From Hyphomicrobiales bacterium (GTDB taxonomy: Bacteria; Pseudomonadota; Alphaproteobacteria; Rhizobiales; Beijerinckiaceae), in contig JAQGKD010000062.1 of the NCBI GenBank assembly GCA_028290285.1, positions 1 through 64,000 of the forward strand: 64,000 nucleotides of DNA. Direction: 5' to 3'. The stretch's first letter is position 1. Every line of letters begins with the position of its first letter. Below are positions 27,215 to 46,584 of this stretch, one piece after another. The notes beneath the pieces are model-generated. The model saw only the letters and a list, made by a program, of their open reading frames with translations. It searched no databases and was not told where the DNA came from. The position numbers were made by a program, and so were the translations under genes.

Positions 27215-29539
27215 TCACGCGCGCGCCTCGGCGATCAGCCGGAACAACACCTGCGGCGTCACGGGTGTCTGGCTGATCCTCACATGGAACGGAGACAGCG
27301 CGTCCTCGATCGCCGAGATGATCGCCGCAGCCGCGGGGATCGTGCCCACCTCGCCGACCCCCTTCGCGCCCAGCGGGTTGATGGGCGAGGGCGTCTGCCG
27401 ATAAATCGTCTGGAAATTAGGCACGTCGGTCGATGTCGGCAGCAGATAATCCGCGAAAGTGGTCGTCAGCGGCTGGCCGTTGGCGTCGTAGATCATCTCT
27501 TCGAGCAGCGCGTTGCCGATGCCATGGGCGATGCCGCCACGGATCTGACCATCGACGATCATCGGGTTGATGAGCGTGCCGCAATCCTGCAGGGCCGTGT
27601 AGCGCAGGATGGTGACATGGGCGAGATCGGGGTCCACCTCGACCTCCACGACATGGCTCGTATTCGCATAGGCGAGCGGCTCGGTCTGCCATTTGATGTC
27701 GGCTTCGAGCGAGGGCTCGATGCCCGGCGGAAAGGCATAGCCCGGCGCCCCCCGCAGAATGCGTGACAGTTCGCCGAGCGAAACCGCGAGATCTGGCGCG
27801 CCGATGACGCGCACCTTGCCGTCTGCGAGTTCGAGATCGTCTTCGGACGCCTCCAGCATGTGGCTCGCGAGCTTCTTCGCCTTGGCAGCGACCGCGCGCG
27901 AGGAGAGCAGCACGGAGGAGCCCGCCGTCACCAGCTGGCGGCTCGCAAAGCCGCCGAGCCCGAGTGGCGTGCGCGCCGTGTCGCCGGAGGTGACCGTGAT
28001 CTGGTCGGCACGGACGCCGAGCTGGTCGGCGCAGATCTGTGCGAGGGCGGTGCCGAGGCCCTGGCCCATGGCTGCCGCGCCCGTATAGATCGAGATCTGT
28101 CCCGATGGATTGACGCGCACCATGCCCGTCTCAAAGGGACCGCGCCCCGTGCCCTTCACCGCATGGGCGAGCCCGATGCCCAGATAGCGGCCCTGCTTGC
28201 GCGCATCCGCCTGCCGCTTCGCAAACCCGTCCCAATCGGCCGCCGCCAGCACTTCCGCCTGGCTGGCAATGTAATCGCCGCTGTCATAGGTGATGCCTGC
28301 ACCCGAGCGCGCCTTCAGCGGCTTGGAATAGGGCATCTTCTCCGGCGGGATGAGATTGCGTCGGCGAATTTCCACGCGGCCCACGCCGAGTTCGCGCGCC
28401 ACGCGATCCATCAGCCGTTCCATCGCGAAGGCGGCTTGCGGATACCCAGCGCCACGCACGGAGGACGCCGGCACCTTGTTGGTGAAACCGATGATTACGT
28501 CGACTTCGTAATGCGGCACGATGTAGGGGCCAGGCACCGCCGTCGCCGAATTATACGGCAGGTTGACGGCCTTGAGCGCATAGGCGCCCTGATCGTGGAT
28601 CAGATTACCGCGAATGCCCGATATCAACCCTTCACCATCGACGGCGATTTCAAGCGTCCAATATTGGTCGCGCTCCTGCACGGCGGTCATGCAGTGTTCG
28701 CGGCGGTCCTCGACCCATTTCAGCGAGCGGCGCAAGAGCAGGGCGGCGGCGGCAACCGCGATCTCTTCGGGGTAAATGCAATATTTCGGGCCGAAACCGC
28801 CGCCCACATCGGGCGTGATGACGCGCAGGCTGTCTTCCTCGAGCCGCGTCGCTTCGGCGATCGCCGTGAACAGGTCGTTTGGCATCTGTGTCGACGACCA
28901 GACGTTCAGCCCACGGTCGGGACGGCATTCGGCGACAACGCCGCGCGTCTCCATCGGATGCGCGCAGCCGCGATGCTGCCACAGCTCCTCGCGAAACACA
29001 TGCTTCGCCGTGGCGAAGGCCGACGCGGCATCGCCATAGGCGACCTTCAGCCGGTTGAGCACATTCGTGCTCGCTTCCTGCCGCACAGTGAGATCGTTGC
29101 TCGCAACGGCGGCGCGGATGTCTGTCACCACGGGCAAGGGCTCGTAGTCGACGATCACGCAACCCGCCGCATCCTCCGCCGCGTAGCGGCTTTCGGCCAC
29201 GACCATGGCAATGGTCTCACCGACGAAGGCGACCTCCGTGTTCGACAAAATGTAGGGCGTTATCGGCCCAGTCGCCTTGGTCGGGCTGGCACCGAGGGGC
29301 ATCCGCTCCACGCCTGTCACCTTGATCAGATCGGCCATCGTCAGCACGGCATGCACGCCGGGCATCGCGCGCGCTTCGTCGAGCGCGATGGAGCGGATCA
29401 GGGCATGGGCGTGCTGGCTGCGGACGAAGCAAACATGGAGAATGCCGGGGATGGAAATATCGTCGAGAAACTGCCCATTGCCGGTCAGCAAGGGCCTGTC
29501 TTCGATGCGCGGAGTGCGAGAGCCGATCAGAGAACCCAT
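27215..29539 (-). CDS. Molybdenum hydroxylase large subunit, set 1
   Basis: The 774-residue protein is a xanthine-dehydrogenase-family molybdopterin-binding subunit. Visible are the N-terminal IGSRTPRIEDRPLLTGNGQF, the Moco loop DVGGGFGPKYCIYPEE, the active-site loop SVRGAGYPQAAFAMERL, MGQGLGTALAQICAD, and the catalytic glutamate segment GAKGVGEVGTIPAAAA. The active-site loop lacks the AYxCSFR of form I CO dehydrogenase, so it is a hydroxylase or aldehyde-type enzyme. It follows its 2Fe-2S and FAD subunits (order M-S-L). The start at 29539 is five bases past the small-subunit stop. It is the last gene of the minus-strand cluster. Confidence 0.92.
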   Translation of the reverse strand: MGSLIGSRTPRIEDRPLLTGNGQFLDDISIPGILHVCFVRSQHAHALIRSIALDEARAMPGVHAVLTMADLIKVTGVERMPLGASPTKATGPITPYILSNTEVAFVGETIAMVVAESRYAAEDAAGCVIVDYEPLPVVTDIRAAVASNDLTVRQEASTNVLNRLKVAYGDAASAFATAKHVFREELWQHRGCAHPMETRGVVAECRPDRGLNVWSSTQMPNDLFTAIAEATRLEEDSLRVITPDVGGGFGPKYCIYPEEIAVAAAALLLRRSLKWVEDRREHCMTAVQERDQYWTLEIAVDGEGLISGIRGNLIHDQGAYALKAVNLPYNSATAVPGPYIVPHYEVDVIIGFTNKVPASSVRGAGYPQAAFAMERLMDRVARELGVGRVEIRRRNLIPPEKMPYSKPLKARSGAGITYDSGDYIASQAEVLAAADWDGFAKRQADARKQGRYLGIGLAHAVKGTGRGPFETGMVRVNPSGQISIYTGAAAMGQGLGTALAQICADQLGVRADQITVTSGDTARTPLGLGGFASRQLVTAGSSVLLSSRAVAAKAKKLASHMLEASEDDLELADGKVRVIGAPDLAVSLGELSRILRGAPGYAFPPGIEPSLEADIKWQTEPLAYANTSHVVEVEVDPDLAHVTILRYTALQDCGTLINPMIVDGQIRGGIAHGIGNALLEEMIYDANGQPLTTTFADYLLPTSTDVPNFQTIYRQTPSPINPLGAKGVGEVGTIPAAAAIISAIEDALSPFHVRISQTPVTPQVLFRLIAEARA

Positions 29540-29544
29540 CTGAA

Positions 29545-30024
29545 TCACTTGCCTCCGAGGCGGGTCGCGGCATCCTGCGCGGCTTCGACAATGCTTTGAT
29601 AGCCGGTGCAACGGCAGATGTTGCCGGAAATGGCATCGCGGATCTCGTCCTCTGAAGGCGACGGCGTTTCCGCCAGCAACTCCGTAAGGGTCATCAGCAT
29701 GCCCGGCGTGCAGAAGCCGCATTGCAAGCCGTGATGATCGTGAAAGGCCTGCTGTAGCGGGCTCAGCGTCCCATCAGCCGCAGCCAGCCCCTCTATCGTG
29801 CGAACCGCGAAGCCATCGACCTGTGCCGCCAGCATCAGGCAGGAGCGCACACTGGCGCCTTCCACGAGAACCGTGCATGCCCCGCAGACGCCATGCTCGC
29901 AGCCCAGATGCGTCCCCTTCAAACCCAGGTCATGGCGCAGGAAGTCCGCGAGCGTCAGGCGCGGGCTGACGCTGCGCTCGTAAGGCATCCCGTTTACGCT
30001 GACACTGATGTTGACGGGCGTCAT
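29545..30024 (-). CDS. Molybdenum hydroxylase 2Fe-2S subunit, set 1
   Basis: The 159-residue protein carries two [2Fe-2S] clusters: the plant-ferredoxin-type [15 protein letters not shown] and the helical [10 protein letters not shown] with NICRCTGYQ. It relays electrons from the molybdenum subunit to the FAD subunit. Its ATG overlaps the stop of the FAD subunit (ATGA), and the large subunit follows directly. No signal peptide, so the enzyme is cytoplasmic. Confidence 0.95.
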
Positions 30025-30896
30025 ATCGCAGCCTCCGAAGTGGCGCCGTGCATGGCCTGCAGCAGCGCACGCGTGACGAGGACAGATGCGACATGGCGCC
30101 GGTAGTCGACATCCGCGTGAATGTCGGCCGAGGCCGGCATATCCTTCACCAGTGCCGAGGCCCGCGCGATGAGGTCTGCACCGCCATCGGTTCCGAGTAG
30201 CAGCGCCTCGGCGGAATCGAGCCGGATGGGGGTGTCGGTGAGCCCACCGATGGCAATAGCGACGCGTGAGATGCGGGCGGCATTGTCACGCTCGACGAGG
30301 CAGCATGCAGATGCGATGGCGAAATCCCCCCTGCGTCGCGCATGTTCGAGAAATGCCCATGAATGATCCAGTGCCCAGGGCTTGATCCAGAGCCGCGTCA
30401 ACATTTCGTCAGACGCTAGCTTGACGCTCATGTATCCGGCCAGAAAGTCTCGGATCGGCAGGCGCTTGCGGCCGGACGACGAGGCAATCTCGACCTCCGC
30501 ATCATACAGCAGCGCGATGGTCGGAAGCTCGGCGGAAGGATCGAGGTGGCAGATGCTGCCGCCGATCGTCCCGCGATTGCGCGTCTGGCGGTGCCCGACA
30601 TATTTCAGCGCCTCAACCATGACGGGCAAATGTCGCGCAATGAGCGGCGAGCGTTCCAGCAGCCGCTGCCGGACCATTGCGCCGATCTCGACACGCCCGT
30701 CGATCAGCAGGAGTTCCGAAAGTTGCGGAATCCTGTTCAGATCGATCAGCGTGTCGGGAAAGACGAAGCGGAGATTGAGCATCGCCATCAACGATTGCCC
30801 GCCCGCGAGCAGCTTGGCATTCTCCGTAGTTGCCAGAAGCGCGAGCGCCTCATCGAGGCTCGCGGGACGCAGATAGTCGAATGGCGGTGGCTTCAT
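30021..30896 (-). CDS. Molybdenum hydroxylase FAD subunit, set 1
   Basis: The 291-residue CoxM-like protein has FAD-binding motifs AGGQSLMAMLNLRF (32-45) and TIGGSICHLDPSAELP, plus the N-terminal PPFDYLRPASLDEALALLA. It takes electrons from the 2Fe-2S subunit to an external acceptor. The ATG overlaps the stop of the upstream TctC gene (ATGA), and its own stop overlaps the small subunit start, so four genes form one coupled unit. Confidence 0.95.
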   Translation of the reverse strand: MKPPPFDYLRPASLDEALALLATTENAKLLAGGQSLMAMLNLRFVFPDTLIDLNRIPQLSELLLIDGRVEIGAMVRQRLLERSPLIARHLPVMVEALKYVGHRQTRNRGTIGGSICHLDPSAELPTIALLYDAEVEIASSSGRKRLPIRDFLAGYMSVKLASDEMLTRLWIKPWALDHSWAFLEHARRRGDFAIASACCLVERDNAARISRVAIAIGGLTDTPIRLDSAEALLLGTDGGADLIARASALVKDMPASADIHADVDYRRHVASVLVTRALLQAMHGATSEAAI

Positions 30897-31957
30897 GGGG
30901 CTTTTTTGCTCGCGGGTGTTTCAGCGCCGGATGCCGCTGCGGCAGCTGCGATGACTTCTTTGGGGGAAGCCCAGAGCGAGGCCACCAGATCCTGTATCTT
31001 CTTGCCGGATACGGGGTTCACATCGAGGTTGCTCTTCTTGGCGTCAGCCAGGAATTCCGGGTCGGTCATGGTTTCGTCGAACGCTTGACGCAAGGCCTTC
31101 AGCCGCTCCTCGGGAACGCCAGGCGGCGTTGCGAACGGCCGCGCCATTTCCTGCGGCGCCACGATCAGTTCGACGATCTTCTTTTTGACGGGGTCGCTCA
31201 CAAGATCGAGGATCAGCGGCACTTCCGGAATCGCCGGATGCTTTTCGAGGGAGGCCTGCACGAGGATTCTGACCTTCTTCTGCACCAGCCAATCGTTATG
31301 GATGCTCTGCAGCGTGCTGTATGAAATGCCGCAGAGACCGTCGAGCTCACCGCGCTCCATGGCAAGCGTCATTTCCGCCGTGCCCGGATATCCCGTCACA
31401 AGGCGCGTATTCGAGCCGAATACCTTTTGCAGCACGTTTGCGAAGACATCCGGCTCGGAGCCGCGCCCTTCGCCACCCGCGCGATATTCCTTGGTGAGCA
31501 CGTCGTTCCAGTTCTGGATCGGCGACGTATGCCACGAAATGCAGATGCTGGTGTCCTGCGTGATGCTACCGAGATAGCCGAGCTTGGTGCCGTCGAAATC
31601 GGCGGGCGCGATGAGGAGCGGATAAAGCGGCAGGCTGCGTCCGAAAGTGCCTATGGTAGTGCCGTCTTTAGGAGCAACCTGGGAAAGGTAGTTGACGACC
31701 TTGAGGCTGCCCGCACCCGGCATGCTCTGGGGGACCACATTCGGATTGCCCGGAATGTGCCGGCCGATGTGGCGCGAGAGCAGGCGGGCGTAGAGGTCGT
31801 AGCCGCCGCCGACGCTGTAGCCGATGAGCAGGTTGATTGTCTTGCCCTTGTAGAAACTCGCGACGGACTCCGCACTGTTCTGCGCGACGGCTGCGGCAGA
31901 TGTCAGCAGAAGGCTCGATAACGCCAGTAAGGCAGTGAATTTGACCCGAGACATCAT
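30893..31957 (-). CDS. TctC/Bug-type binding protein coupled to hydroxylase set 1
   Basis: The 354-residue periplasmic receptor has a signal peptide (cleavage near AVAQ), INLLIGYSVGGGYDLYARLL, HIPGNPNVVPQSMPGAGSLK, and the C-terminal ERLKALRQAFDETMTDPEF. GAGGATCTTTAC precedes the ATG (two adjacent ATGs). No TctA or TctB accompanies it. Direct ATGA coupling to a molybdenum hydroxylase suggests that it binds the hydroxylase substrate or a related acid in the periplasm. The C-terminus is extended by an Ala/Lys-rich tail. Confidence 0.92.
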   Translation of the reverse strand: MMSRVKFTALLALSSLLLTSAAAVAQNSAESVASFYKGKTINLLIGYSVGGGYDLYARLLSRHIGRHIPGNPNVVPQSMPGAGSLKVVNYLSQVAPKDGTTIGTFGRSLPLYPLLIAPADFDGTKLGYLGSITQDTSICISWHTSPIQNWNDVLTKEYRAGGEGRGSEPDVFANVLQKVFGSNTRLVTGYPGTAEMTLAMERGELDGLCGISYSTLQSIHNDWLVQKKVRILVQASLEKHPAIPEVPLILDLVSDPVKKKIVELIVAPQEMARPFATPPGVPEERLKALRQAFDETMTDPEFLADAKKSNLDVNPVSGKKIQDLVASLWASPKEVIAAAAAASGAETPASKKAP

Positions 31958-32089: not shown

Positions 32090-32095
32090 GATCTT

Positions 32096-33082
32096 TCAGA
32101 CTCGGAACCCGCCGCGCTTGTGACCCTGGTCCACAGGCAGGAACATTTCCTCGGGCGTCATCTTGTTCTTCATCATGCCCTGCTCATAGGAATAGCCGAT
32201 GAGCGTTTCGAGGTTATGCCTGTTTTTCGGCGTCATTCCGTATTCCCACGGATCTGTGCCGAGCACGTCTTCCTGCTCTTCCCAAGCTTCGCGATACCAG
32301 GCCAGCGGAACGAGACGCGGGTTTTCCATGCGCTTCATCGCAATGGACTTGGATGCTTCGAACGCCTTGTAGAGTTCGACGGGCACCCAGGGGTGACGAT
32401 CGATCAGCGACTTGCGCAGCCCCATCACATGCATGATCGGGAAAATTTGCGTCTTCTTGTAATAGGCGATCTCGTCGTTCTTGTAGTCTGGGAAAAGCCT
32501 CCCGACATTCGGATCCTTGTTGAGGATCGGGTCAATCAGGTCGGGATGCAGAACGGCGTCCAGCTCGCCACTGACGAGCATCTTTTCGACCGACTTGTCG
32601 TCGGGCAGGCGCGTCAGCCTGAGGCCCGGCGGCGGCGTGAATTCCACGTCCTCGTCAATCTCGGAGAACCATTCGCAGGACGTGTGCGGCACGCCATATT
32701 CATGCTCGAGAATGCCCCGCAGCCAAAGGATCGCGCTGACCTGATAGGACTTCACGCCGATCTTCTTGCCGATAAGATCCTTCGGGCTCTTGATGCCCTT
32801 GTTCGTGTTGATGAACACGAACCCGTGGCGGAAGCGCCGATGCAGGAACACCGGCAGCGACTCGATCGGCATGCCCTGATCCTTGGCGATCAGGTACGAC
32901 GAACTCGACAGTTCCGCGACGTCGAATTCACCGTTGCGAAGGAACCGCCAGTGGCGGGTGCTGGAGTCCATTTTGGTCAGGATGGTCAGTTCGATCCCAT
33001 CCGGCTTGACGATTCCCTCCTTGATCGGCCGCACGATCTCATAATCGCCGCAGGCCAATGTGATCTTGATGTCGCTCGGCAT
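32096..33082 (-). CDS. 4,5-dihydroxyphthalate decarboxylase-like protein
   Basis: The 328-residue protein resembles the Pht5-type 4,5-dihydroxyphthalate decarboxylase family, which has a periplasmic-binding-protein fold. Blocks are ITLACGDYEIVRPIKEGIVK (7-26), DVAELSSSSYLIAKDQG, and IFPIMHVMGLRKSLIDRHPW. There is no signal peptide, consistent with a cytoplasmic enzyme rather than a transport receptor. It follows the UbiD gene with a 46-base gap. A second decarboxylation step is possible; a soluble binding role cannot be excluded. Confidence 0.82.
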   Translation of the reverse strand: MPSDIKITLACGDYEIVRPIKEGIVKPDGIELTILTKMDSSTRHWRFLRNGEFDVAELSSSSYLIAKDQGMPIESLPVFLHRRFRHGFVFINTNKGIKSPKDLIGKKIGVKSYQVSAILWLRGILEHEYGVPHTSCEWFSEIDEDVEFTPPPGLRLTRLPDDKSVEKMLVSGELDAVLHPDLIDPILNKDPNVGRLFPDYKNDEIAYYKKTQIFPIMHVMGLRKSLIDRHPWVPVELYKAFEASKSIAMKRMENPRLVPLAWYREAWEEQEDVLGTDPWEYGMTPKNRHNLETLIGYSYEQGMMKNKMTPEEMFLPVDQGHKRGGFRV

Positions 33083-33128: not shown

Positions 33129-34562
33129 TTAGACACCATCGGGCAGCACATGAGCCCACTTGTCCTTGATGCGCTTGTCGAGCTCCTTGCTGGAGCGCGC
33201 GACGATCGGGAACGTATCCTTGCGCTTGAACGGTTTGCAAGCATTGATGATGATGCGCCCATTCCGGCGATCGACGTCGCCATCGTAGCACATGGGGTCC
33301 AGCGCTGAACTCCAGCCTCCCTCGATGATGTCGATGCTCTCGCGCGTGTCGACGCGCGTGGACATCGCCCAGATGACCTCGTCGATCTTGGTCGGGTCGA
33401 TGTCGTCATCGACGACGATCGTCCAGCGGTTGCAATAAGCGCCTGCGAGACAATGGGCGGCGATCATTCCGGCCTGCTTGGCATGGCCGCCATAAAGCTG
33501 CTTGATTGAGACGGTCGTCCAGAAGCGGCTGCCGCCCGCCTCATGCGCCCAGACACCCTTGATCTCCGGCACGCCGGCGGCTTCGAGCTGGTTCCATATT
33601 GCGCCGCAGCGATAGCTGCCGAGGTAGAATGTATTGTCGTTCGGAGGCACGGCGGGAATGGCGCCGAGCAGGATCGGGTCGTTGCGGTGCATCATGGTCT
33701 CGATGCGAATGACGGGCTCGGGACGGCTGCCGCCAGCGTAATAGCCGGTCCACTCGCCGAGCGGACCTTCCTGCATCACGTCGTTGGGGTGGATGTAACC
33801 TTCGAACGCAATCTCCGCATTGGCTGGAACCGGCAAGCCGGTCTTCGGCATGCGGAAGATTTCAACGGCCTCGCCGAAAATGCCGCCAGCGGCTTCGAAT
33901 TCGCTCTTTCCGTAGGGGATCTCGAGACCCGAGAGCATGAACATGGCCGGATGCACGCCGACGACGACGGCGACCGGGCAGGGCTCGCCACGGTCGTGGT
34001 ACTTGTTCAACAGGATGCGTCCGTGCTTGCCGGGCGAGATCATCACAGTCGCGATATTGGGCCCCTGCGTCTGCACGCGGTAGGCGCCGTAATTGATCCA
34101 GCCTGAATCCGGGTCCTTGATGATGACCATGCAGGCCGTGCCGATGAAGGGGCCGCCGTCATGCTCGTGCCAGACGGGGGTCGGAATCTTCTCGAGATTG
34201 ACATCCTTGCCTTCGAGAATGTTCTCGCAAAGCGGACCGCCATTGACCTCGACGGGCGGGATCATCGGCGCATCGCGCATATAGCCCCGCCACCATTGCA
34301 CCAGGTCCATCTCGCTGCCCTTGGCGGGTAGCCCCAGGGCGATGTTGATGCGCGCCACGGAGGTCAGAATGTTGGCGAGGACTCGCGCGCCCTTCGGAAA
34401 ACCGGGCACTTCGTCGAACAGGACCGCGGGATTGCCCATCTTGCGCTGATAGAGATCGACGATGCCGCCGATCTCTTCCTTGGGCTCCGCGCCCTTGATG
34501 ATCTTGAGCTCGCCAATCGCCTCGACGGCGGCGAGCCAGTCGCGGAGGTCCTTATTCGCCAT
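33129..34562 (-). CDS. UbiD-family prFMN-dependent decarboxylase
   Basis: The 477-residue protein has UbiD landmarks: NKDLRDWLAAVEAIGEL at the N-terminus, CENILEGKDVNLEKIPTPVW, the prFMN/metal region INYGAYRVQTQGPN, and the catalytic-glutamate segment MQEGPLGEWTGYYAGG. Such enzymes reversibly decarboxylate aromatic, heteroaromatic or unsaturated acids using prenylated FMN. The start at 34562 follows CAGGAGATTGAA. It lies between an ABC permease and the dihydroxyphthalate-decarboxylase-like gene. No UbiX prenyltransferase is in the window, so the cofactor must come from elsewhere. The substrate is probably the acid handled by the adjacent hydroxylases. Confidence 0.92.
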   Translation of the reverse strand: MANKDLRDWLAAVEAIGELKIIKGAEPKEEIGGIVDLYQRKMGNPAVLFDEVPGFPKGARVLANILTSVARINIALGLPAKGSEMDLVQWWRGYMRDAPMIPPVEVNGGPLCENILEGKDVNLEKIPTPVWHEHDGGPFIGTACMVIIKDPDSGWINYGAYRVQTQGPNIATVMISPGKHGRILLNKYHDRGEPCPVAVVVGVHPAMFMLSGLEIPYGKSEFEAAGGIFGEAVEIFRMPKTGLPVPANAEIAFEGYIHPNDVMQEGPLGEWTGYYAGGSRPEPVIRIETMMHRNDPILLGAIPAVPPNDNTFYLGSYRCGAIWNQLEAAGVPEIKGVWAHEAGGSRFWTTVSIKQLYGGHAKQAGMIAAHCLAGAYCNRWTIVVDDDIDPTKIDEVIWAMSTRVDTRESIDIIEGGWSSALDPMCYDGDVDRRNGRIIINACKPFKRKDTFPIVARSSKELDKRIKDKWAHVLPDGV

Positions 34563-34622
34563 TTCAATCTCCTGTTCATGCGCGGTGCGCATATCGTGCT
34601 TGTTGGGTTGCGGAAACTCTCT

Positions 34623-35411
34623 TCAGCCGCCACCCGCCAGAGGTGTCTGCTTGCGCGTGGCCCAGCCCGTCATGCGGGTTTCGATCAGCGCGAAGATGAG
34701 ATATGTGCCGATGCCCATGGCCGCGATCACGATGAGGCCTGCGAACATCAGCGATGTCCGGAATTGCGAGGCCGCCTGCAGCATCATGTAGCCAATGCCG
34801 TCATTGGAGGCGAGCGTCTCGGAGATGACAGCACCAACGAAGGCCAGTGTAATCGCCACCTTCAGCGATGCGAAGAAATAGGGCAGGCTGCGCGGCAGGC
34901 CGACCTTGATGAGCACATCCAGCTTCGACGCGCCGAGAGAGCGCAACACGTCTTCGAGTTCAGGTTCGACCGTGGCAAGTCCAGCCGCGACATTGACCGC
35001 GATCGGAAAGAACGACAGCAGGAATGCGGTCGCAATCGCGGGCGGGGCTCCAATGCCCATCCAGAGTACAAGGACTGGCACGACGGCCGCCTTCGGCACC
35101 GAGTTGATGCCGATCAGCATCGGATAGAAGCCGGCATAGACAAGCCGCGACGAGCCGATCGCGACACCCAGAAATCCACCGACCAGGATGCCGATACCAA
35201 AGCCGATCAGCGTATTCGTCAGCGTGAATACAGCATGCTCCATGATCGGATCGCGATACTGCATGAAGGAATTGTAGACCGCCAAAGGGGACGGCAGGAT
35301 GAAGGCCTTCAACTCGAAAACTCGCACCGAGAAGTCCCAGAGAATCAGCGTTCCCAGCAGTACGAGCCATGGCATGACCCGCTCGAGCCGTCGAAAGGTT
35401 TTCGGCGTCAT
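34623..35411 (-). CDS. ABC transporter permease, Tau/Nrt/Ssu type
   Basis: The 262-residue permease has about six membrane helices and a BPD-type coupling loop (LEDVLRSLGASKLDVLIKVG). It is SsuC/TauC-like in length and pattern. Its ATG follows the ATPase stop with no gap, so the ATPase, permease and upstream binding protein form a complete importer. The TauABC-type class often imports sulfonates, nitriles, pyrimidines or aromatic acids such as phthalate; here an aromatic acid is inferred from context. Confidence 0.92.
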   Translation of the reverse strand: MTPKTFRRLERVMPWLVLLGTLILWDFSVRVFELKAFILPSPLAVYNSFMQYRDPIMEHAVFTLTNTLIGFGIGILVGGFLGVAIGSSRLVYAGFYPMLIGINSVPKAAVVPVLVLWMGIGAPPAIATAFLLSFFPIAVNVAAGLATVEPELEDVLRSLGASKLDVLIKVGLPRSLPYFFASLKVAITLAFVGAVISETLASNDGIGYMMLQAASQFRTSLMFAGLIVIAAMGIGTYLIFALIETRMTGWATRKQTPLAGGG

Positions 35412-38682: not shown

Positions 38683-41042
38683 GACGCCGCCCTCTCGGAC
38701 GCACGGGCAAGCTGCACGGCATCCCAGACGCGTCGTGGCGTCAGGGGGGTCTCGTTGAAGCTCGCCTTGCAGTCGCGAAAAGCGTCGGCGACGGCATTGG
38801 CCAGCGCCGCGGGCGGGGCAATCGCGCCGCCTTCGCCAACCCCCTTGACGCCATATTCAGTCACCTTGGCGGGTGTCACGGAATGGGCGATGCGCACGGT
38901 TGGTATCTCCGTCGCACACGGCATCATGTAATCGGCGAAAGTCGTGGCGAGCGGCTGTCCGTCGGCGTTGAACGGGATCTCTTCGTAGAGGCCCGTGCCG
39001 ATACCCTGCGCAATGCCGCCCTGAACTTGCCCATCGACGATCATGGGATTGATCATGGTGCCGCAATCCTCGGACACGGCATAGTCGAGGATCTTCACGC
39101 CACCGGTGGATTCGTCGACCTCCACCACGACGGCATGCGTGCCGTAGGAGAAGACGCCTGCCGATTCCGTGGGCTCGTAGGTGCCCGTCATGTCGAGTGA
39201 GGGGTCCATGCCCTCGGGCAGCATTTCCTGCCGGATATTGGCGGCGAGTGCGATCTCGCGGAAAGCGACGGAGCCGCTCTGGCTGACCACATGTCCGTCT
39301 TCGATGTGCACGTTCTTCGGATCGGCCTGCAGGAAATGCGCGCCGATCAATCGAATCTTCTCGGCTAGGCGGCGGGATGTGGTGCCCACTGCGCCGCCGG
39401 CGAAGACGATGGTGCGCGACGCGAATGTGCCGAACCCGAAGGGCGTCGTCGACGTGTCGCCGTAGCGAATCTTGATCTGAGAGGGGTCGAGGCTGAGTTC
39501 ATGCGCGGCGATCTGCGCCAGCGTGGTTTCGTGTCCCTGTCCGTGGTTCTGCACGCCGACGTGAATGACGACGGACCCATCGGGCAGCATGCGCACATTC
39601 GCGGATTCGTAGCCCGGCACGACACGCGATTTGCGCTTCGACCATTCCACCACGCCATGCCCGCTCTGTTCGGTATAGACCGCGAAGCCCACCCCGACGC
39701 GCGGCTCGCCAGCCCTGCGCGCTGCCTGTCGCCGCCTGACGGCCGGAATGTCCACCATCGCAGCGGCGGTATCGAGTGCGTCGTGGTAGTCGCCCGTGTC
39801 CAGCTTCAAACCCGCGACGGTGACAAAAGGCATTTCCTCGCGCGTCACGAGGTTGCGCTTGCGCAACTCGTAGGGCTCGATGCCCATGTGCAGCGCCACC
39901 TCGTCGACAAGCCGCTCGATGGCGAAACATGCACCGGGGCGGGCGACGCCGCGATAGGGGCCCATGGGCGCCTTGTTTGTCGCGACAGTGAACGTATTCA
40001 CCGAGAGAGCCTTGACGCGATAGGGGCCGGGGAGGTTTCCAGCCGCCATGCTGGCCTCCATGAAGGAGCCCGTCGGCCAGAGCGCATAAGCGCCCGCGTC
40101 GATATAGACGTCTCCCTCGATGCCCAGCAGCCGCCCCTCGCTGTCGGCCGTCACCGTCAGGTCGTAATGATGATCGCGGCAATGGACGGAGGCCAGCAGA
40201 TGCTCGCGCCGGTCCTCGATCCATCGCACGGGATGACCGACCTTGAGCGCGATCGCGCAAACCGCGATCTCTTCCGGCAGCAGGCGGTTCTTGCCACCGA
40301 AGCCTCCGCCGACGTCGGGTGCGATGACGCGAATTTGGTTCTCCGGCAGGCCGAGTGCACGCGCGAGCCCCAGCCGCATGACATGGCCGCCCTGCGTCGA
40401 AAGATGAACGACGAGCTCTTCCAGCCGCGCATCCCAATGCGCAACCACGCCGCGCGTTTCGAGCGACACGGTCGCCTGCCGGTTCATGCGAAACCTGCGG
40501 TGCAGGCGGATGGGCGCATCCTTCAGGAGGCTCATGTCGCCCGCGCTGATCGTGCGCGCGATATAGGCATTGTCGGCCCAGTTTTCGAACAGCCGTGCGG
40601 AGCCGGGAGACATGGCGTCGATGGCATTGACCACGGCGGGCAGTTCAGCGCATTCCACCTCGACCAGCTCGGCCAGATCCTCGGCGCGTGCCCGCGTCGT
40701 CGCGATACAGGCGGCGATGGCCTGGCCGACGTAGCGAACCTTATCGGAGGCCAGCGCAGGGTAGGGCGATTGCCGGAAGGCATCCAACTCGGGGCCGGCT
40801 TCGAGCACGTTCAGCGAGGGGAAATCGGCGATCGTGAAGACGCGATTCTGCGAGTCCGCGGGCTTGGTGATGGACGTGATACGCCCATGCGCAATCTGAC
40901 TGCGGACGAAGGCGATATCCTGCAAGCCGGGAAGGCGGACATCGGCGACGAACATCGCCTTTCCTGCGAGATGTCGCGCGTCTTCCTTACGCAACAGGCT
41001 GGCCCCGATCCAGCCGCTGGAAGAATGCGCATCCCCACTCAT
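38679..41042 (-). CDS. Molybdenum hydroxylase large subunit, set 2
   Basis: The 787-residue molybdopterin-binding subunit has WIGASLLRKEDARHLAGKAM at the N-terminus, Moco loop DVGGGFGGKNRLLPEEIAV, active-site loop GPYRGVARPGACFAIERL, HVGVQNHGQGHETTLAQIAA, and the catalytic glutamate segment GVKGVGEGGAIAPPAA. Not a form I CO dehydrogenase. The start at 41042 gives the right N-terminus; a long upstream open frame is not homologous. It is the first gene of the minus-strand cluster, and a palindrome lies about 65 bases upstream. Confidence 0.92.
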   Translation of the reverse strand: MSGDAHSSSGWIGASLLRKEDARHLAGKAMFVADVRLPGLQDIAFVRSQIAHGRITSITKPADSQNRVFTIADFPSLNVLEAGPELDAFRQSPYPALASDKVRYVGQAIAACIATTRARAEDLAELVEVECAELPAVVNAIDAMSPGSARLFENWADNAYIARTISAGDMSLLKDAPIRLHRRFRMNRQATVSLETRGVVAHWDARLEELVVHLSTQGGHVMRLGLARALGLPENQIRVIAPDVGGGFGGKNRLLPEEIAVCAIALKVGHPVRWIEDRREHLLASVHCRDHHYDLTVTADSEGRLLGIEGDVYIDAGAYALWPTGSFMEASMAAGNLPGPYRVKALSVNTFTVATNKAPMGPYRGVARPGACFAIERLVDEVALHMGIEPYELRKRNLVTREEMPFVTVAGLKLDTGDYHDALDTAAAMVDIPAVRRRQAARRAGEPRVGVGFAVYTEQSGHGVVEWSKRKSRVVPGYESANVRMLPDGSVVIHVGVQNHGQGHETTLAQIAAHELSLDPSQIKIRYGDTSTTPFGFGTFASRTIVFAGGAVGTTSRRLAEKIRLIGAHFLQADPKNVHIEDGHVVSQSGSVAFREIALAANIRQEMLPEGMDPSLDMTGTYEPTESAGVFSYGTHAVVVEVDESTGGVKILDYAVSEDCGTMINPMIVDGQVQGGIAQGIGTGLYEEIPFNADGQPLATTFADYMMPCATEIPTVRIAHSVTPAKVTEYGVKGVGEGGAIAPPAALANAVADAFRDCKASFNETPLTPRRVWDAVQLARASERAAS

Positions 41043-41488: not shown

Positions 41489-42349
41489 ATGGCAAGTTTC
41501 GAACTCGTAGAGCCGACAAACCTCGAAGACGCCTTTGCCCTGCTCGACGACGACGACCCTGCCGTTCGCCCCTTCGGCGGCGGCACGGCCTTGATGCTCA
41601 TGATGAAAGCGCAATTGTTCAAGCCGGTACGGCTCGTCAGCCTGCGCCGCCTCGGGCAGCGCTTCGATGGCATCACGCTCAGCCAGGATGCGAGTTCGTT
41701 CCGCATCGGCGCGATGACGACCTTCTCGCAGCTCGAGCACTCGCCCGAGATTGGGGCTTATCTGCCCATCATCACGCAGACGATGAAGACGCTCGCCAAT
41801 GTGCGTGTGCGCAACGTGGCGACTGTCGGCGGCAATCTTGCCCATGGCGATCCTCATCTCGATCTGCCGCCCGTGTGGATGACGCTGGGCGCGGAGGCGC
41901 TCATCGTCAACAAGTCGGGCAAGCGGCTAGTGCCGATCGCCGATCTTTACGCAGGCTATTACGAAACCACTCTGGCGCAGGGCGATCTCATCGCCGAGCT
42001 GCATGTGCCGGTGCGCCCCGCCTGGCGCTCCTTCTATGCCAAGGTGACGACTCGCGCCGAGCACGACTGGCCGGCACTCGGCATCGCAGTCTCTGTGCAG
42101 GCTGAGGGGCGGTATGTGAAAGACGTCAGCATCGTCCTCAGCGCCGCCGTCGACAAGCCGACGCGGCTGGTCGCTGCCGAGGACCTTCTCCGTGGTGCGA
42201 CTATCGACGAACAAGTGCTGCGCCGCGCCGGCGAGGCTGCTGTCGCCGAGGTTCACATCGAAACCGACAATCGCGGTTCTGCCGCCTACAAGAAGCACCT
42301 TTTGAGCGTCCACCTCGGCCGCGCCATTCAAACCGTCATGGGGGAGTGA
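41489..42349 (+). CDS. Molybdenum hydroxylase FAD subunit, set 3
   Basis: The 286-residue CoxM-like protein starts FELVEPTNLEDAFALLDDDD, with FAD motif FGGGTALMLMMKAQLF (about 29-44; FGGGT replaces the usual AGGQS) and TVGGNLAHGDPHLDLP. First gene of a plus-strand M-L-S operon divergent from the main cluster. The ribosome binding site is weak (GGATCGG). The stop is six bases before the large subunit ATG. Confidence 0.94.
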   Translation: MASFELVEPTNLEDAFALLDDDDPAVRPFGGGTALMLMMKAQLFKPVRLVSLRRLGQRFDGITLSQDASSFRIGAMTTFSQLEHSPEIGAYLPIITQTMKTLANVRVRNVATVGGNLAHGDPHLDLPPVWMTLGAEALIVNKSGKRLVPIADLYAGYYETTLAQGDLIAELHVPVRPAWRSFYAKVTTRAEHDWPALGIAVSVQAEGRYVKDVSIVLSAAVDKPTRLVAAEDLLRGATIDEQVLRRAGEAAVAEVHIETDNRGSAAYKKHLLSVHLGRAIQTVMGE

Positions 42350-42354
42350 GACCA

Positions 42355-44643
42355 ATGGTTGCTGTCACATCCTCTCCCAACATCGGCAAATCCATCGACC
42401 GCCTGGAGGCCCGCGAAAAGGTTACCGGCCGCGTTGAATACGTTCATCACCTGCGCCTGCCGGGCATGCTTTACGGAAAAATTTTCCGCAGCACCGTGCC
42501 GCATGCGCGCATAAAGAGCGTGGATATCTCTGCCGCGCAGGCCCTCGAGGGCGTCTATCAGGTCGTCACCATCGACGACATTCGCAAGGTGATTCCGCAT
42601 CCCTATTACGGCCCGGCGTTCCACGATCAGCCGATTCTGGCGGACGGAAAAGTGCGTTTCGCAGGCGAGCCTGTCGCGGTAGTGCTGGCCACAGACAAGC
42701 GCATCGCGGAGGAGGCGGTCGGCCTCATCACCGCCGAATACGAGGACCTGCCCGGCGTCTTCGACGAAGTCGACGCCATGACATCGGAGACGCTCGTCCA
42801 TGACGTGCTGAAACCGGCTGCGACCTTCCCGGATCTGCAACATCTGAAGGGCCGGAGCGGTACCAATGTAGCGCTCGATTATCATCTGCTGCACGGCGAT
42901 CCGGATGCCGGCTTCGCGGCGTCCGACCACATATTCGAGCACACGTTCCGCACCCAGCAGGTGATGCACACGCCGATGGAGCCTTTCGTCTCCGTCGCCG
43001 ATGCGCAGGAAGGCCGCGTCACGCTGCACACTGCGTCGCAGGGACCGTCCTTCGTGCGCATCGAGATCGCGCGCCTTCTCGGCCTGCCGGAAAACCGCGT
43101 GCGCGTGGTCGTGCCGCATCTCGGCGGCGGCTTCGGCGGAAAACTCTATATCAAGCTCGAGGCGCTCGTCACCGCGCTGTCTATGGTCGCGCAGAGGCCC
43201 GTGAAGATCTCGCTCACCATGGAAGAGCAGTTCTATATGGTCACGCGCCATCCTTGCACGTTCAAGATCAAGAGCGGCGTGACCAAGGAGGGCAAGATCC
43301 TCGCGCGCCATTGCGAGATCGTATGGAACGGCGGTGCCTATGCCGATATCGGCCCGCGCGTGACGCAGAAGGCGGGCTTCACCTCGGCCGGTCCCTACGA
43401 CATCGAGAACGTCTCCATCGATTCCTATGCCGTCTACACGAACCGTCCGCCGTGCGGCGCACTGCGCGGCTTCGGCGCCCCGCAGACGGCCTGGGCCTAC
43501 GAGTGCCACACGGACATGATCGCCGACGCGCTCGGCTTCGACAAGATCGAGTTCCGTCGGCAAAACCTCCTGCGGGAAGGGCGCCCGCAGGCGTCGGGAA
43601 CGCTGATGCGCGACGCCGCGCTCGATCAGGTGCTCGACCACATCGTGGATCGCATGAACTGGAGCGTGCCGCTAAACAAGGGCACGGGCCGCATCCGCCG
43701 GGGTCGCGGCATCGCCATCGGCTTCAAGGGCATCACGGCGCCGACCACCTCTGTCGCCATCGTCAACATGTATGGCGACGGCAGCTGCGGGCTCTATATC
43801 GGCACCGTCGACATGGGGCAGGGGTCGGACACGGTGATGGCCCAGATCGCCGCCGAAGTGCTGAACATCGATGCGGCCTCGATCCGGGTCATCCATCCCG
43901 ACACCGACGTGACGCCCTACGACATGGGCACGCTGGGTTCGCGGTCGACCTTCCACATGGGAACGGCGGTTCGGCTCGCAGCCGAGGAGGCGAAAGCCAA
44001 GATCGCTGCGCTCGCAGTCGAACTCGGCATGCCCGAGGGGAGCAACGTGCCGCTGGCGGAACTCTTCCGCCGCAAATATGGGATGCAAGCGGGCAACATC
44101 ATCGGCACCGGCAGCTTCATTCCGGCCTACGAGAAACCGGACACCAAGACCGGCCAGTCCACCAAGGCGACGCCCTTCTGGGGCGTCGGCGCGGCGGGCG
44201 CGGAGGTCGAGATCGACACCGAGACCGGCCACATCAAGGTGACCAAGCTCGTCAACGTGGCGGATGTCGGCACGGCCATCAATCCGAAGATGGTGCAGCA
44301 GCAATTGTCGGGGGCGGGCATCATGCAGCTCGGTTTCACGCTCACGGAAAACATGGTGTTTCGCGATGGGCAACTGACCAACGGCTCGCTCGCGGATTAC
44401 AAGATCCCGAACCTGCTCGACATGCCCCGCGAGTTCATCAACGAATATGTGGAGTCCCGCCAGAAGGACGGGCCGTTCGGCGCCAAGGGGGCAGGTGAAA
44501 GCACGACCATCGCGCTCTCGCCCGCCATCGGCAACGCCGTCGCGGACGCCATTGGCATTCACCTGACGGATTTGCCCATCACGCCGGAATCCATCTTCCG
44601 CGCGCTGCAAGAAGCAAACGGCACCCCATTGGCGGGAGACTGA
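42355..44643 (+). CDS. Molybdenum hydroxylase large subunit, set 3
   Basis: The 762-residue molybdopterin subunit has IDRLEAREKVTGRVEYVHHL, Moco loop HLGGGFGGKLYIKLEALV, active-site loop CGALRGFGAPQTAWAYECHT, VDMGQGSDTVMAQIAAEVLN and GAKGAGESTTIALSPA. The RGFGAPQ wording is closer to xanthine/nicotinate dehydrogenase-like and 4-hydroxybenzoyl-CoA-reductase-like enzymes than sets 1 and 2. ATG 42355 follows GGGGGAG eight bases upstream; a GTG at 42346 overlaps the previous stop. It is therefore a distinct enzyme, not a recent copy. Confidence 0.93.
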   Translation: MVAVTSSPNIGKSIDRLEAREKVTGRVEYVHHLRLPGMLYGKIFRSTVPHARIKSVDISAAQALEGVYQVVTIDDIRKVIPHPYYGPAFHDQPILADGKVRFAGEPVAVVLATDKRIAEEAVGLITAEYEDLPGVFDEVDAMTSETLVHDVLKPAATFPDLQHLKGRSGTNVALDYHLLHGDPDAGFAASDHIFEHTFRTQQVMHTPMEPFVSVADAQEGRVTLHTASQGPSFVRIEIARLLGLPENRVRVVVPHLGGGFGGKLYIKLEALVTALSMVAQRPVKISLTMEEQFYMVTRHPCTFKIKSGVTKEGKILARHCEIVWNGGAYADIGPRVTQKAGFTSAGPYDIENVSIDSYAVYTNRPPCGALRGFGAPQTAWAYECHTDMIADALGFDKIEFRRQNLLREGRPQASGTLMRDAALDQVLDHIVDRMNWSVPLNKGTGRIRRGRGIAIGFKGITAPTTSVAIVNMYGDGSCGLYIGTVDMGQGSDTVMAQIAAEVLNIDAASIRVIHPDTDVTPYDMGTLGSRSTFHMGTAVRLAAEEAKAKIAALAVELGMPEGSNVPLAELFRRKYGMQAGNIIGTGSFIPAYEKPDTKTGQSTKATPFWGVGAAGAEVEIDTETGHIKVTKLVNVADVGTAINPKMVQQQLSGAGIMQLGFTLTENMVFRDGQLTNGSLADYKIPNLLDMPREFINEYVESRQKDGPFGAKGAGESTTIALSPAIGNAVADAIGIHLTDLPITPESIFRALQEANGTPLAGD

Positions 44644-44644
44644 C

Positions 44645-45133
44645 GTGACGACACCCCGGACCATCCGCTTCACACTCAACGAACGCGCCGTCAGCCTCGA
44701 CGTCATGCCGCATGAGACCATCATCGACATGTTGACCCAGCGCTTCGACCTGAAGGGTGCACGCGAAAGCTGCGGCCAGGGCCTGTGCGGCTGCTGTACC
44801 GTTTATGTCGACGGCAAATCCCTGTCGGCCTGCCTGTCGCTCGCCTGGTTCCTCGATGGCACGAAGGTCGAGACCATCGAGGGGCTCGCCAAGGGCGGGC
44901 AACTAGATCCCGTGCAGGAGGCTTTCATCGAGGCGGGAGCCTTCCAATGCGGGTTCTGCACGCCCGGCTTCATCATGATGGTAAAGCAATTGCTCGATCA
45001 TCACCCCGATCCAAGCGACGACGAGATCCGCCATTACCTGACGGGCAATCTCTGCCGCTGCTCCGCCTATCCCGAGATTGTGGACGCGGTGCGGATCGCA
45101 GCGGCCAAGCGGGCTCGGGCTTTGGCGGCCTAA
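44645..45133 (+). CDS. Molybdenum hydroxylase 2Fe-2S subunit, set 3
   Basis: The 162-residue protein has CGQGLCGCCTVYVDG, CGFCTPGFIMM and NLCRCSAYPEIV, giving two [2Fe-2S] clusters. CGQGLCG differs from CEHGxCG of sets 1 and 2, again marking set 3 as a separate lineage. Start codon GTG at 44645, two bases after the large subunit stop. A 13-bp hairpin follows. Confidence 0.94.
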   Translation: MTTPRTIRFTLNERAVSLDVMPHETIIDMLTQRFDLKGARESCGQGLCGCCTVYVDGKSLSACLSLAWFLDGTKVETIEGLAKGGQLDPVQEAFIEAGAFQCGFCTPGFIMMVKQLLDHHPDPSDDEIRHYLTGNLCRCSAYPEIVDAVRIAAAKRARALAA

Positions 45134-45154
45134 TGAGCGTGTGAGGAGGTATGT

Positions 45155-45189
45155 ATCTGCGCCTCCCGTGATGGTTGGGAGGCGCAGAT
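45155..45189 (+). terminator. 13-bp hairpin after the set 3 operon
   Basis: Perfect arms ATCTGCGCCTCCC and GGGAGGCGCAGAT with a nine-base loop, 22 bases after the 2Fe-2S subunit stop. No T-run, so termination may be partial, or it protects the transcript end. Confidence 0.6.
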
Positions 45190-45543
45190 CGTAACTCGCA
45201 TAATTCGGACTACTCGCGACGAACCGACATTTTGATCCGTGTCGAATTGATTTGCACCGAAACAGTGCTCTTGATCTTACCTCCTGGCATTAGAACTATT
45301 AGCATGAAGGCAACGAAAATTGCTTTTTGCGTAATGTCGTCGAGAACCATTTTTTAGACTCCATTTCAATCACAACGTAACCTCCTGTAATTCAGCCGCC
45401 ATGACTAGGTGCCTTTGTTAGTGTACTGATAAGAGTTCGGAACTTTTTTGAACCAAGAACGCGCCCCCCGCGACAAGCCCCCGCAACTTCCCTATGCTGT
45501 CCCGGCACCCGGCAAGAGGGGCGAACGCAAGGGGGAGGGCGCG
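45190..45543. other. AT-rich intergenic region, nothing recognised
   Basis: About 350 bases, AT-rich to about 45440, without a supported gene. It may hold a separate promoter for the downstream TctC gene. Confidence 0.45.
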
Positions 45544-46584
45544 ATGGCTCGGCATGGGGCACGGATTTTGGTGGCGGCGGCATGTTTGGCGATGGCCGGA
45601 TCCGCCCACGCGCAGGACGCGATTGCCTCCTTCTACAAGGGCCGCAACCTCACCATCATCATCGGCTCGTCGCCCGGCGGCGGCTATGATCTCTACGGCC
45701 GCTTGATCTCGCGCTTCCTCAGCAAGCACGTTCCCGGCAACCCGACGATCATCGTGCAAAACATGCCGGGCGCGGCATCCAACGTCGCGGCGGCCTATGT
45801 CTACAACGTCGCGCCGAAGGATGGCTCTGTGATCGGCGCGCTGTTCATGGGCGCGGTGGTCGAGCCGCTGTTCGGGGATTCGAAGCGCGTCACGCACGAC
45901 ATGAGCAAGTTCAACTATATCGGCAACGCCAACAGCGATGCCTATGTCTGCCTCGTGCGCACCGACGCGCCGGTCAAGAACATGGCGGATGCGTTCGAAA
46001 AGGAACTCATCATGGGTGCCAGCGCGGAAGGCGCCTCGACGCGCGACTTTCCGGTGCTCCTGAAAAACCTGCTCGGCGCGAAATTCAAGGTTGTCGCTGG
46101 CTATCCCGGCACGCGCGAGATCAACCTGGCGCTGGAGAAGGGCGAGGTTCAGGGGGCCTGCGGCGAAACATGGTCGAGTGTCGCGGCAACCTATCCAACA
46201 TGGTTCAAGGACAATCTGGTCAAGCCGCTCGTGCAGGAATCCAACACCGGTTACCCCGACCTCGACAAGCGGGGCGTGCCGCTTGCCCGTGAGTTTGCGA
46301 AGACGGACGAACAGCGCCAGATCCTCGATCTCGTCTATACGCAAACGACCTTCGGGCGGCCCTATGTCGTCGCCCCCGGTGTCCCGCCCGAGCGGATCGA
46401 GGCGCTCCGCAAAGCCTTTATGGAAACGCTCACCGATCCCGATCTGCTGGCAGAGGCCAAGCGCATCAACCTCGATGTCGGCCCCATCTCCGGCGCGGAG
46501 TTGCAGAAGCTGATCGCGAAGCTCTATGCGACGCCGCAGGACCTCGTTGACAAGGCGAAGGCGGCGATTGCGTTCCGGAATTGA
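45544..46584 (+). CDS. TctC/Bug-type binding protein next to hydroxylase set 3
   Basis: The 346-residue periplasmic receptor has a signal peptide (LVAAACLAMAGSAHAQ), LTIIIGSSPGGGYDLYGRLI, HVPGNPTIIVQNMPGAASNV and ERIEALRKAFMETLTDPDL. GGGGGAGGG precedes the ATG at 45544. Its wording is close to the TctC protein coupled to set 1 (ASFYKGK/R then IIG-x-S), so the two are likely paralogues. No TctA/TctB genes nearby. It may bind the same carboxylate class. Confidence 0.92.
   Translation: MARHGARILVAAACLAMAGSAHAQDAIASFYKGRNLTIIIGSSPGGGYDLYGRLISRFLSKHVPGNPTIIVQNMPGAASNVAAAYVYNVAPKDGSVIGALFMGAVVEPLFGDSKRVTHDMSKFNYIGNANSDAYVCLVRTDAPVKNMADAFEKELIMGASAEGASTRDFPVLLKNLLGAKFKVVAGYPGTREINLALEKGEVQGACGETWSSVAATYPTWFKDNLVKPLVQESNTGYPDLDKRGVPLAREFAKTDEQRQILDLVYTQTTFGRPYVVAPGVPPERIEALRKAFMETLTDPDLLAEAKRINLDVGPISGAELQKLIAKLYATPQDLVDKAKAAIAFRN

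Follow-up and report, generated by a model that had tools for sequence, protein, structure and literature searches.

The window analysed here is a stretch of 64,000 nucleotides from a Hyphomicrobiales bacterium of the Beijerinckiaceae (GCA_028290285.1, contig JAQGKD010000062.1, positions 1 to 64,000 of the forward strand). From about 27215 to 46584 it carries, on both strands, a block of genes for three molybdenum hydroxylases, a UbiD-family decarboxylase (UbiD-A), a protein of the 4,5-dihydroxyphthalate decarboxylase (DHPD) family, a Tau/Nrt-type ATP-binding cassette (ABC) importer and two TctC receptors. An earlier reading of the letters alone, hereafter the original prediction, had described this composition, and each component was found in its place. 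With L, M and S denoting the large, FAD and [2Fe-2S] subunits of hydroxylase sets 1 to 3, the minus strand reads L2-M2-S2, ABC substrate-binding protein, ATPase, permease, UbiD-A, DHPD-like protein, TctC1 and M1-S1-L1, twelve genes with intergenic gaps of at most 138 bases and a 4-base overlap between TctC1 and M1. The plus strand carries M3-L3-S3, divergent from L2 across a gap of 446 bases, and TctC2, 314 bases beyond S3. The genes are as follows.

27215..29539, minus strand: L1, molybdenum hydroxylase large subunit (Pfam MoCoBD_1/2; KGVGE glutamate present; no CSFR loop)
29545..30024, minus strand: S1, [2Fe-2S] subunit (Fer2 and Fer2_2; both Cys motifs)
30021..30896, minus strand: M1, FAD subunit (FAD_binding_5 and CO_deh_flav_C)
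30893..31957, minus strand: TctC1, orphan solute receptor (TctC, E 1.4e-7; signal peptide-like start, by eye)
32096..33082, minus strand: DHPD-like protein (phmmer match to 9jp7, E 5.4e-55; in Pfam a weak NMT1 match only)
33129..34592, minus strand: UbiD-A, decarboxylase of the prenylated flavin mononucleotide (prFMN) type, likely start 34562 (TIGR00148, 293 bits, cut-off 244.85)
34623..35411, minus strand: ABC permease, Ssu/Tau/Nrt type (BPD_transp_1)
35412..36269, minus strand: ABC ATPase, Tau/Nrt type (ABC_tran; taurine/nitrate-type models best, below cut-off)
36287..37336, minus strand: ABC substrate-binding protein, NMT1-like (NMT1, E 1.4e-26; leader like those of twin-arginine (Tat) substrates, by eye)
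37379..37867, minus strand: S2, [2Fe-2S] subunit (NCBIfam gamma-subunit models, below equivalog cut-offs; Cys motifs)
37864..38682, minus strand: M2, FAD subunit (FAD_binding_5 only)
38679..41042, minus strand: L2, molybdenum hydroxylase large subunit (MoCoBD_1/2)
41489..42349, plus strand: M3, FAD subunit (FAD_binding_5 and CO_deh_flav_C)
42355..44643, plus strand: L3, molybdenum hydroxylase large subunit (MoCoBD_1/2)
44645..45133, plus strand: S3, [2Fe-2S] subunit (Fer2 and Fer2_2)
45448..46584, plus strand: TctC2, orphan solute receptor, start probably near 45544 (TctC, E 8.6e-9)

Pfam served to assign all L and M subunits, S1 and S3, and NCBIfam to assign S2. As listed, the open reading frames of L1 and L2 extend to 29722 and 41423, probably too far at the 5' end; starts near 29539 and 41042 are more likely. 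The original prediction had counted three uptake systems, which overstates what is present, as the TctC receptors are two orphans and not two systems. Neither TctA nor TctB occurs among the cluster genes (the remainder of the genome was not searched for them), and the ABC importer is therefore the sole complete uptake system here.

All three hydroxylase sets possess L, M and S subunits with molybdenum cofactor domains, the FAD domain, two [2Fe-2S] motifs and the catalytic glutamate; the C-terminal CODH-flavoprotein domain, CO_deh_flav_C, was not detected by Pfam in M2. Subunit order differs as predicted, being M1-S1-L1 in set 1 (30896 to 27215, minus strand), L2-M2-S2 in set 2 (about 41042 to 37379, minus strand) and M3-L3-S3 in set 3 (41489 to 45133, plus strand). 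The large subunits are divergent, sharing 39% identity between L1 and L2, 30% between L1 and L3 and 31% between L2 and L3, so that they did not arise by recent duplication in place, in agreement with the proposal that the sets were assembled. The best solved relative of both L1 (E 1.2e-149) and L2 (E 1.1e-154) is quinoline 2-oxidoreductase (1t3q), and that of L3 is 4-hydroxybenzoyl-CoA reductase (1rm6, E 3.5e-100); 6-hydroxypseudooxynicotine dehydrogenase ranks second for both L1 and L3 and fourth for L2. Carbon monoxide oxidation was considered and rejected. Scores against NF040766 (L1 724, L2 541 and L3 310, cut-off 950) and TIGR02416 (L1 511, cut-off 991) all fall short, and none of L1 to L3 has the CSFR motif, which we take to be the active-site loop of aerobic CO dehydrogenase.

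Three hydroxylases side by side need not share a role. The source genome (G000, 4.99 Mb) has 36 places with a large-subunit domain, one of them a short fragment (40 matches minus four second pieces of one frame), and random placement would yield 0.20 triples within 16 kb on average, giving a probability of at least one of 0.18. Proximity alone is therefore no evidence, and conservation must carry the case.

Within the genus, 9 of 37 genomes, the source genome included, have a UbiD-A orthologue at 80% identity or more; the copy in G025 is split over two contigs. The genes around them are shuffled and yet retained. G016:C5 and G036:C13 carry TctC1-M1-S1-L1-UbiD-DHPD-M3-L3-S3 on a single strand, G025 has S3-L3-M3 opposite L2-M2-S2-ABC-UbiD as in the window, G014 has L3-M3 opposite UbiD-DHPD-TctC1-L1, and G010 has the order L1-UbiD-L2. 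In G008, parts of the window arrangement are spread over three short contigs, and beyond L1 lies a gene that looks OmpA-like by eye. In the window, a BON/OmpA protein at 25071-26870 adjoins L1, and a similar start (by eye) occupies the same place in G008 (L128). The original prediction would have been refuted had the sets never been conserved together, but a search of 23 genus genomes, of the kind it suggested as a check, showed the three sets to be co-conserved with UbiD-A: L1 orthologues (at least 70% identity) occur in 6 of 7 genomes with UbiD-A, L2 (at least 71%) and L3 (at least 75%) each in 5 of 7, and each in 0 of 16 without it (P 7e-5 for L1, 6e-4 for L2 and L3, kinship being ignored in these values). 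At most 28 first-look candidates were scored per genome for L1 to L3, so that weak orthologues may be missed. L1 was missed in G017, though a contig-edge fragment at 74% lies there, L2 in G002 and G017, and L3 in G010 and G002, the latter with a contig-edge fragment of 67%, below threshold.

This co-occurrence, together with repeated adjacency, argues for a shared role of the three sets. The opposing view is that the block is no single pathway but a hot spot in a hydroxylase-rich genome, where neighbouring sets serve separate roles. Beyond the numbers given above, it can point to G016, where set 2 and the ABC importer lie on another contig than UbiD-A, and to G014, where set 2 is likewise elsewhere. 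We regard it as very unlikely, given that co-occurrence and adjacency recur over several families and that membership is kept while gene order changes. More distant L3 relatives (64-65%) occur in G005, G015, G016 and G040. L1-like (51-52%) and L3-like (64-65%) sets stand together again in L116 (G015:C241) and L119 (G005:C4), and in L116 and L127 (G014:C417) a more distant UbiD (44%) has an L1-like gene in its vicinity; a third module of like kind is possible.

The catalytic residues of UbiD-A itself are conserved. N157, R162, H180, E221, E265 and E270 are invariant in 28 of 28 sequences and include what we take, after the positions in AnFdc1, to be the N, H and E ligands of metal and prFMN and the E-R-E triad. 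Its best Foldseek match is phenazine-1-carboxylate decarboxylase (7pda, 41% identity; E 6.9e-118 in the sequence search), the next solved relative is pyrrole-2-carboxylate decarboxylase, and HudA and HmfF are among the nearest folds (HmfF is called UbiD-type from the titles of fold-search matches). The AlphaFold model, of moderate quality (mean predicted local distance difference test score, pLDDT, 76), served for the fold search only. A UbiX is encoded in the same genome, on contig C112 (TIGR00421, 236 bits, cut-off 108.9). Assignments of UbiD-A as a phenylphosphate carboxylase or a vanillate-type VdcC fell below cut-offs.

To look beyond the genus, we scanned genome contigs with a UbiD profile, which confirmed 107 loci. 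The best 80 were kept; they come mostly from metagenome-assembled genomes (MAGs) labelled Hyphomicrobiales, Xanthobacteraceae, Beijerinckiaceae, Rhodospirillaceae, Defluviicoccus or Alphaproteobacteria, plus a few isolates. In a tree of 73 of these 80 plus references, later enlarged, UbiD-A falls in a clade, here called A, that comprises 51 rows (six being re-fetched copies) and has a support of 100 in the Shimodaira-Hasegawa-like approximate likelihood ratio test (SH-aLRT). We compared the surroundings of 44 A loci with those of 54 non-A loci, leaving out re-fetched copies and the window; L061 alone holds a UbiD of each kind. The large subunit of set 2 (at least 60% identity) is near 10 of 44 A loci and that of set 3 near 7 of 44, and each near 0 of 54 non-A loci. 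Conversely, a hydroxylase termed 'L5' is near 22 of 54 non-A and 0 of 44 A loci, and an L1-type subunit (at least 45%) near 19 of 54 and 5 of 44, respectively. If only loci of 9 kb or longer are considered, a molybdenum hydroxylase of some sort is nearby in 22 of 32 for clade A and in 33 of 44 for the others; those without one include A loci of Defluviicoccus. For AT-rich contigs (e.g. L131, L132 and L146), neighbourhoods were read by tblastn only. L062 starts with a maleate-isomerase-like fragment (by eye) beside set 2, and isochorismatase-family genes lie near UbiD in L053, L058 and L093, a hint of N-heterocycle ring opening. The plasmid collection gave no match to UbiD-A at 60% identity or more.

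Genomes with UbiD-A tend to have a second, divergent UbiD. At 56-61% identity to UbiD-A, it occurs in all 9 UbiD-A genomes of the genus and in 11 of 37 genus genomes overall (hypergeometric P 4e-7, a value that ignores kinship); some of these 11 were placed by identity, others by tree too. A second UbiD is also present in 26 of 32 further A genomes, all 26 falling outside clade A (two of the 32, reached via L057 and L059, were assigned to A by 71% identity and not by tree). A sample of the class yielded any UbiD at E 1e-170 or better in 8 of 385 genomes, the source genome included; without the latter, five have the A type and all five have the second type, with G438 placed by identity alone and three of the five also among the 32. 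In a sample of the order (397 genomes), the sole other A genome has both types, with UbiD identities matching those of the isolate Propylenella binzhouense (L042, L092). At L061/L147 the two UbiD genes stand in tandem, beside L1 and TcuA.

In the source genome the second UbiD (58% to UbiD-A) lies on contig C124 (L033), within a set of genes that we call module B, the window block being module A. Named by similarity to tested relatives, its other genes are L15-S-M, a DHPD (66% to that of the window), an XRE regulator, an MDR-type reductase, an AMP-forming ligase, CoxG, an amidase, a dihydroorotase (DHOase) and an L1-type-S-M set (50%). Module A L1, DHPD and UbiD are homologous to, yet distinct from, their module B counterparts. 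Module B in G007:C140 adds TcuB, TcuA (tricarballylate dehydrogenase) and a hotdog thioesterase. Ligase, reductase, imidase, amidase and two molybdenum hydroxylases occur together in G007:C140, and the same set, by similarity, in G000:C124 and G028:C6. NCBIfam scores in G007 exceed their cut-offs for DHOase (396.8, cut-off 292.95), TcuA (681.6, cut-off 369) and TcuB (497.7, cut-off 246.6); the module B ligase and amidase exceeded no curated cut-off that names a substrate. Near the 54 non-A loci we counted DHOase 14 times, amidase 11 times, and dihydroorotate dehydrogenase (DHODH) and ligase 7 times each. TcuA-type genes occur in 11 of 31 hand-picked loci (L029 and L108, being the same, counted once), and the second module is also present in a betaproteobacterial MAG (L088). 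One cluster of PuuE/allantoinase-like genes is represented in L061, L107 and L113; the tested copy reaches 95 bits against a cut-off of 424.6, and that it stands in for DHOase is therefore only a hint.

Nine catalytic and carboxylate-binding positions of class II DHOases, which we place after E. coli PyrC, are conserved in every one of 13 sequences. A housekeeping pyrC was considered for the C124 DHOase and is unlikely, since it is one of three DHOases in its genome and the two others lie elsewhere. These conserved positions would also suit a route for pyrimidine acids, in which module B would be orotate catabolism with PyrK, DHODH 1B and DHOase, and module A would turn a pyrimidine carboxylate open to hydroxylation into orotate or an analogue. 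DHODH 1B and class II DHOase over their cut-offs do stand together with a PyrK-like protein in several lineages (at L083, DHODH 1B scores 327.5 against 269 and has such a partner). However, the genus modules read (G000, G007 and G028) have an AMP ligase and an MDR reductase and no DHODH or PyrK, TcuA/TcuB and amidase are ill-suited to carbamoyl-aspartate, and we know of no natural pool of pyrimidine acids that needs two decarboxylations. We think this route quite unlikely.

We tentatively favour a different reading, which we hold to be a serious possibility if a little short of probable: a pathway in two modules degrades N-heteroaromatic, probably pyridine-type, (poly)carboxylic acids, and the block forms its peripheral part, module A. 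We infer this substrate class in part because the nearest solved relatives of UbiD-A, L1 and L2 act on N-heterocycles. The original prediction had proposed successive hydroxylation and decarboxylation of an imported acid; an N-heteroaromatic carboxylate is the best candidate for that acid, judging from the solved relatives. No ring-opening family was found among the cluster genes (27215-46584) and the second UbiD is paired with the first, so that the cluster is probably not self-contained.

On the favoured reading, the imported acid would be hydroxylated at ring carbons by the module A hydroxylases and lose carboxylates to UbiD-A, with its prFMN, and perhaps also to the DHPD-like protein. The product would be handed to module B (C124 in the source genome), where a dihydroxypyridine carboxylate such as citrazinate, a 1-deaza analogue of orotate, would be converted to a CoA ester and the ring then reduced. 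A dihydroorotase-like enzyme would open the cyclic imide, the amidase would hydrolyse the amide, freeing ammonia and leaving tricarballylate, and TcuA/TcuB would oxidise tricarballylate to cis-aconitate. By structural reasoning, citrazinate differs from orotate in having C-H where one ring N-H would be, and reduced citrazinate differs from dihydroorotate in having CH2 in place of N-H, its carboxylate placed alike relative to the imide nitrogen; a dihydroorotase-like enzyme should therefore be well shaped to open it. The scheme in full, an undescribed pathway across several alphaproteobacterial families with two paired UbiDs and up to five molybdenum hydroxylases, leading from pyridine polycarboxylates through a citrazinate-type imide and DHOase opening to tricarballylate and cis-aconitate, is on the doubtful side.

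Several observations weigh against this reading. The pairing is imperfect: 6 of the 32 further A genomes lack a second UbiD (G815, G818, G824, G827, G833 and G839), the second UbiD occurs without the A type in G007 and G028 of the genus and in 2 of 7 class-sample genomes, and of the 9 genomes reached via non-A loci 8 show no A type (one of the eight has two UbiD matches, the weaker not placed in the tree; the ninth, G847, has its A row at L098). Ten of the 26 paired genomes have their second UbiD in a sister clade of A (support 92), outside the DHOase-bearing branch. As the counts above show, DHOase and amidase are near only part of the second UbiDs (14 and 11 of 54), and at A loci DHOase, amidase and DHODH are each found at 0 of 44 and the ligase at 1 of 44, in Propylenella (L042). 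Molybdenum hydroxylase paralogues are abundant in the source genome, CO dehydrogenases follow closely in the lists of solved relatives for L1 and L2, and the introduction of PMC7976604 states that where an enzyme falls in the UbiD tree is not fundamentally linked to its substrate specificity. At 3 of 3 DHPD places read in genomes without UbiD-A, the gene sits beside TctC with no UbiD or hydroxylase within 20 kb. Finally, some lineages have Rieske genes of the phthalate type close to the second UbiD (L140 and L151 by eye; 1 of 54 by count), and a 4-oxalomesaconate tautomerase over its cut-off lies about 9 kb from the C124 module (L034, 9092-11932). This tautomerase adjoins an amidohydrolase, and the pair is probably part of a protocatechuate or gallate route.

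The last of these observations also bear on benzene-ring acids as substrates, whether phthalate-like or other hydroxybenzene carboxylates; the DHPD-like protein would then really decarboxylate dihydroxyphthalate, and protocatechuate would undergo 4,5-cleavage further down the route. The DHPD-like protein is closest to a solved 4,5-dihydroxyphthalate decarboxylase, 9jp7, to which it aligns over residues 5-316, and has no signal-like N-terminus by eye; in L055 an extradiol LigB gene adjoins the DHPD-like gene and set 2. A DHPD-like gene at 68% identity on the Sinorhizobium terangae plasmid pCB3126_1 (L115) lies about 7 kb from a Rieske oxygenase-like gene. To these can be added the tautomerase near module B and the Rieske genes of L140 and L151. 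On the other side, the solved relatives of L1 and L2 use N-heterocycles and that of L3 uses a CoA ester, for which module A has no ligase, and DHOase, amidase and TcuAB have no evident part in such a route, which we consider unlikely.

The DHPD-like protein may have a role apart from the modules. Matches at E 1e-80 or better occur in 21 of 23 genus genomes, a broader distribution than that of UbiD-A, and orthologues (71-78%) at L121, L122 and L123 stand beside a TctC receptor without UbiD or hydroxylase. The Sinorhizobium gene lies beside a class II aldolase and an amidohydrolase (by eye), and the 31 kb read there hold no gene resembling UbiD-A or the window hydroxylases.

Five-membered rings, furan or pyrrole carboxylates degraded in the style of 5-hydroxymethylfurfural (HMF) and furandicarboxylate, would fit HudA and HmfF being among the nearest folds of UbiD-A, and also the AMP-forming ligase of module B and the thioesterase of G007. 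There is a precedent: for furandicarboxylate, PMC6678421 describes a UbiD-type decarboxylase, HmfFG, with a molybdenum-dependent furoyl-CoA dehydrogenase. Such substrates strike us as improbable here, as a single furan or pyrrole acid would hardly call for three hydroxylases and two UbiDs and would not require an imidase, an amidase or a tricarballylate dehydrogenase, and as the Propylenella ligase is the only one of the module B type at an A locus.

Should the two-module reading be correct, its interest would extend beyond this genome. Heteroaromatic acids form a slow-turning part of dissolved organic matter and also a part of many drugs and agrochemicals, yet little is known of the genes by which they are lost. 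A recurring system of UbiD and molybdenum hydroxylases with paired UbiDs offers named, testable enzymes in cultured carriers: Propylenella binzhouense L72 has both UbiD types (L042, L092), and Ancylobacter mangrovi (L100) and Rhodovulum sp. 12E13 (L107) have the second. It would give a function to part of the large unassigned pool of molybdenum hydroxylases in such genomes, show a dihydroorotase of pyrimidine metabolism reused in ring catabolism, and provide a genetic basis for the removal of refractory heterocyclic nitrogen from water and soil.

The original prediction knew of no described pathway with this composition. Among the literature matches listed, which covered few subscription journals, we too saw neither the three sets with UbiD and a DHPD-like protein nor paired UbiD modules, and no description of isonicotinate or citrazinate degradation genes or of a dihydroorotase with a pyridine. 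Some of its elements, on the other hand, are known: a UbiD with a molybdenum-dependent dehydrogenase from the furan work cited above (PMC6678421), and double hydroxylation from PMC4548258, where isonicotinate and nicotinate undergo two successive molybdenum-dependent hydroxylations to 2,6-dihydroxy products. The closest solved UbiD, PhdA of Mycolicibacterium fortuitum (7pda), has an N-heteroaromatic carboxylate as its substrate and, according to PMC13040415, shares an operon of three genes with a flavin prenyltransferase and a maturase of its own. Unlike PhdA, UbiD-A has molybdenum hydroxylases as neighbours and its UbiX on another contig, and no flavin prenyltransferase or maturase family occurs among the genes from 27215 to 46584. 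Quinoline 2-oxidoreductase and 6-hydroxypseudooxynicotine dehydrogenase resemble the L subunits at the family level only, which does not imply their substrates.

The HMF and 2,5-furandicarboxylate pathway of Cupriavidus basilensis (hmfABCDE, hmfFGH) likewise joins a UbiD-type decarboxylase to a molybdenum-dependent dehydrogenase. It has one hydroxylase with CoA ligase and thioesterase, whereas the window cluster lacks both ligase and thioesterase families, and it is not known to include a DHPD, an imidase or an amidase. Mycobacterium sp. INA1, in work by Kretzer, Frunzke and Andreesen from 1993 that PMC4548258 cites, degrades isonicotinate by way of hydroxylation to a 2,6-dihydroxy product. 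Its pathway reportedly goes on through a citrazyl-CoA ligase and ring reduction to a tricarballylate-type product. Genes for this pathway were not found in the literature searched, which had few subscription journals, and to our knowledge it involves no UbiD or DHPD-like enzyme. INA1 belongs to another phylum, and module A here adds three further hydroxylase sets and another UbiD; the likeness lies in module B, which in G007 holds a candidate family for each step of the INA1 pathway.

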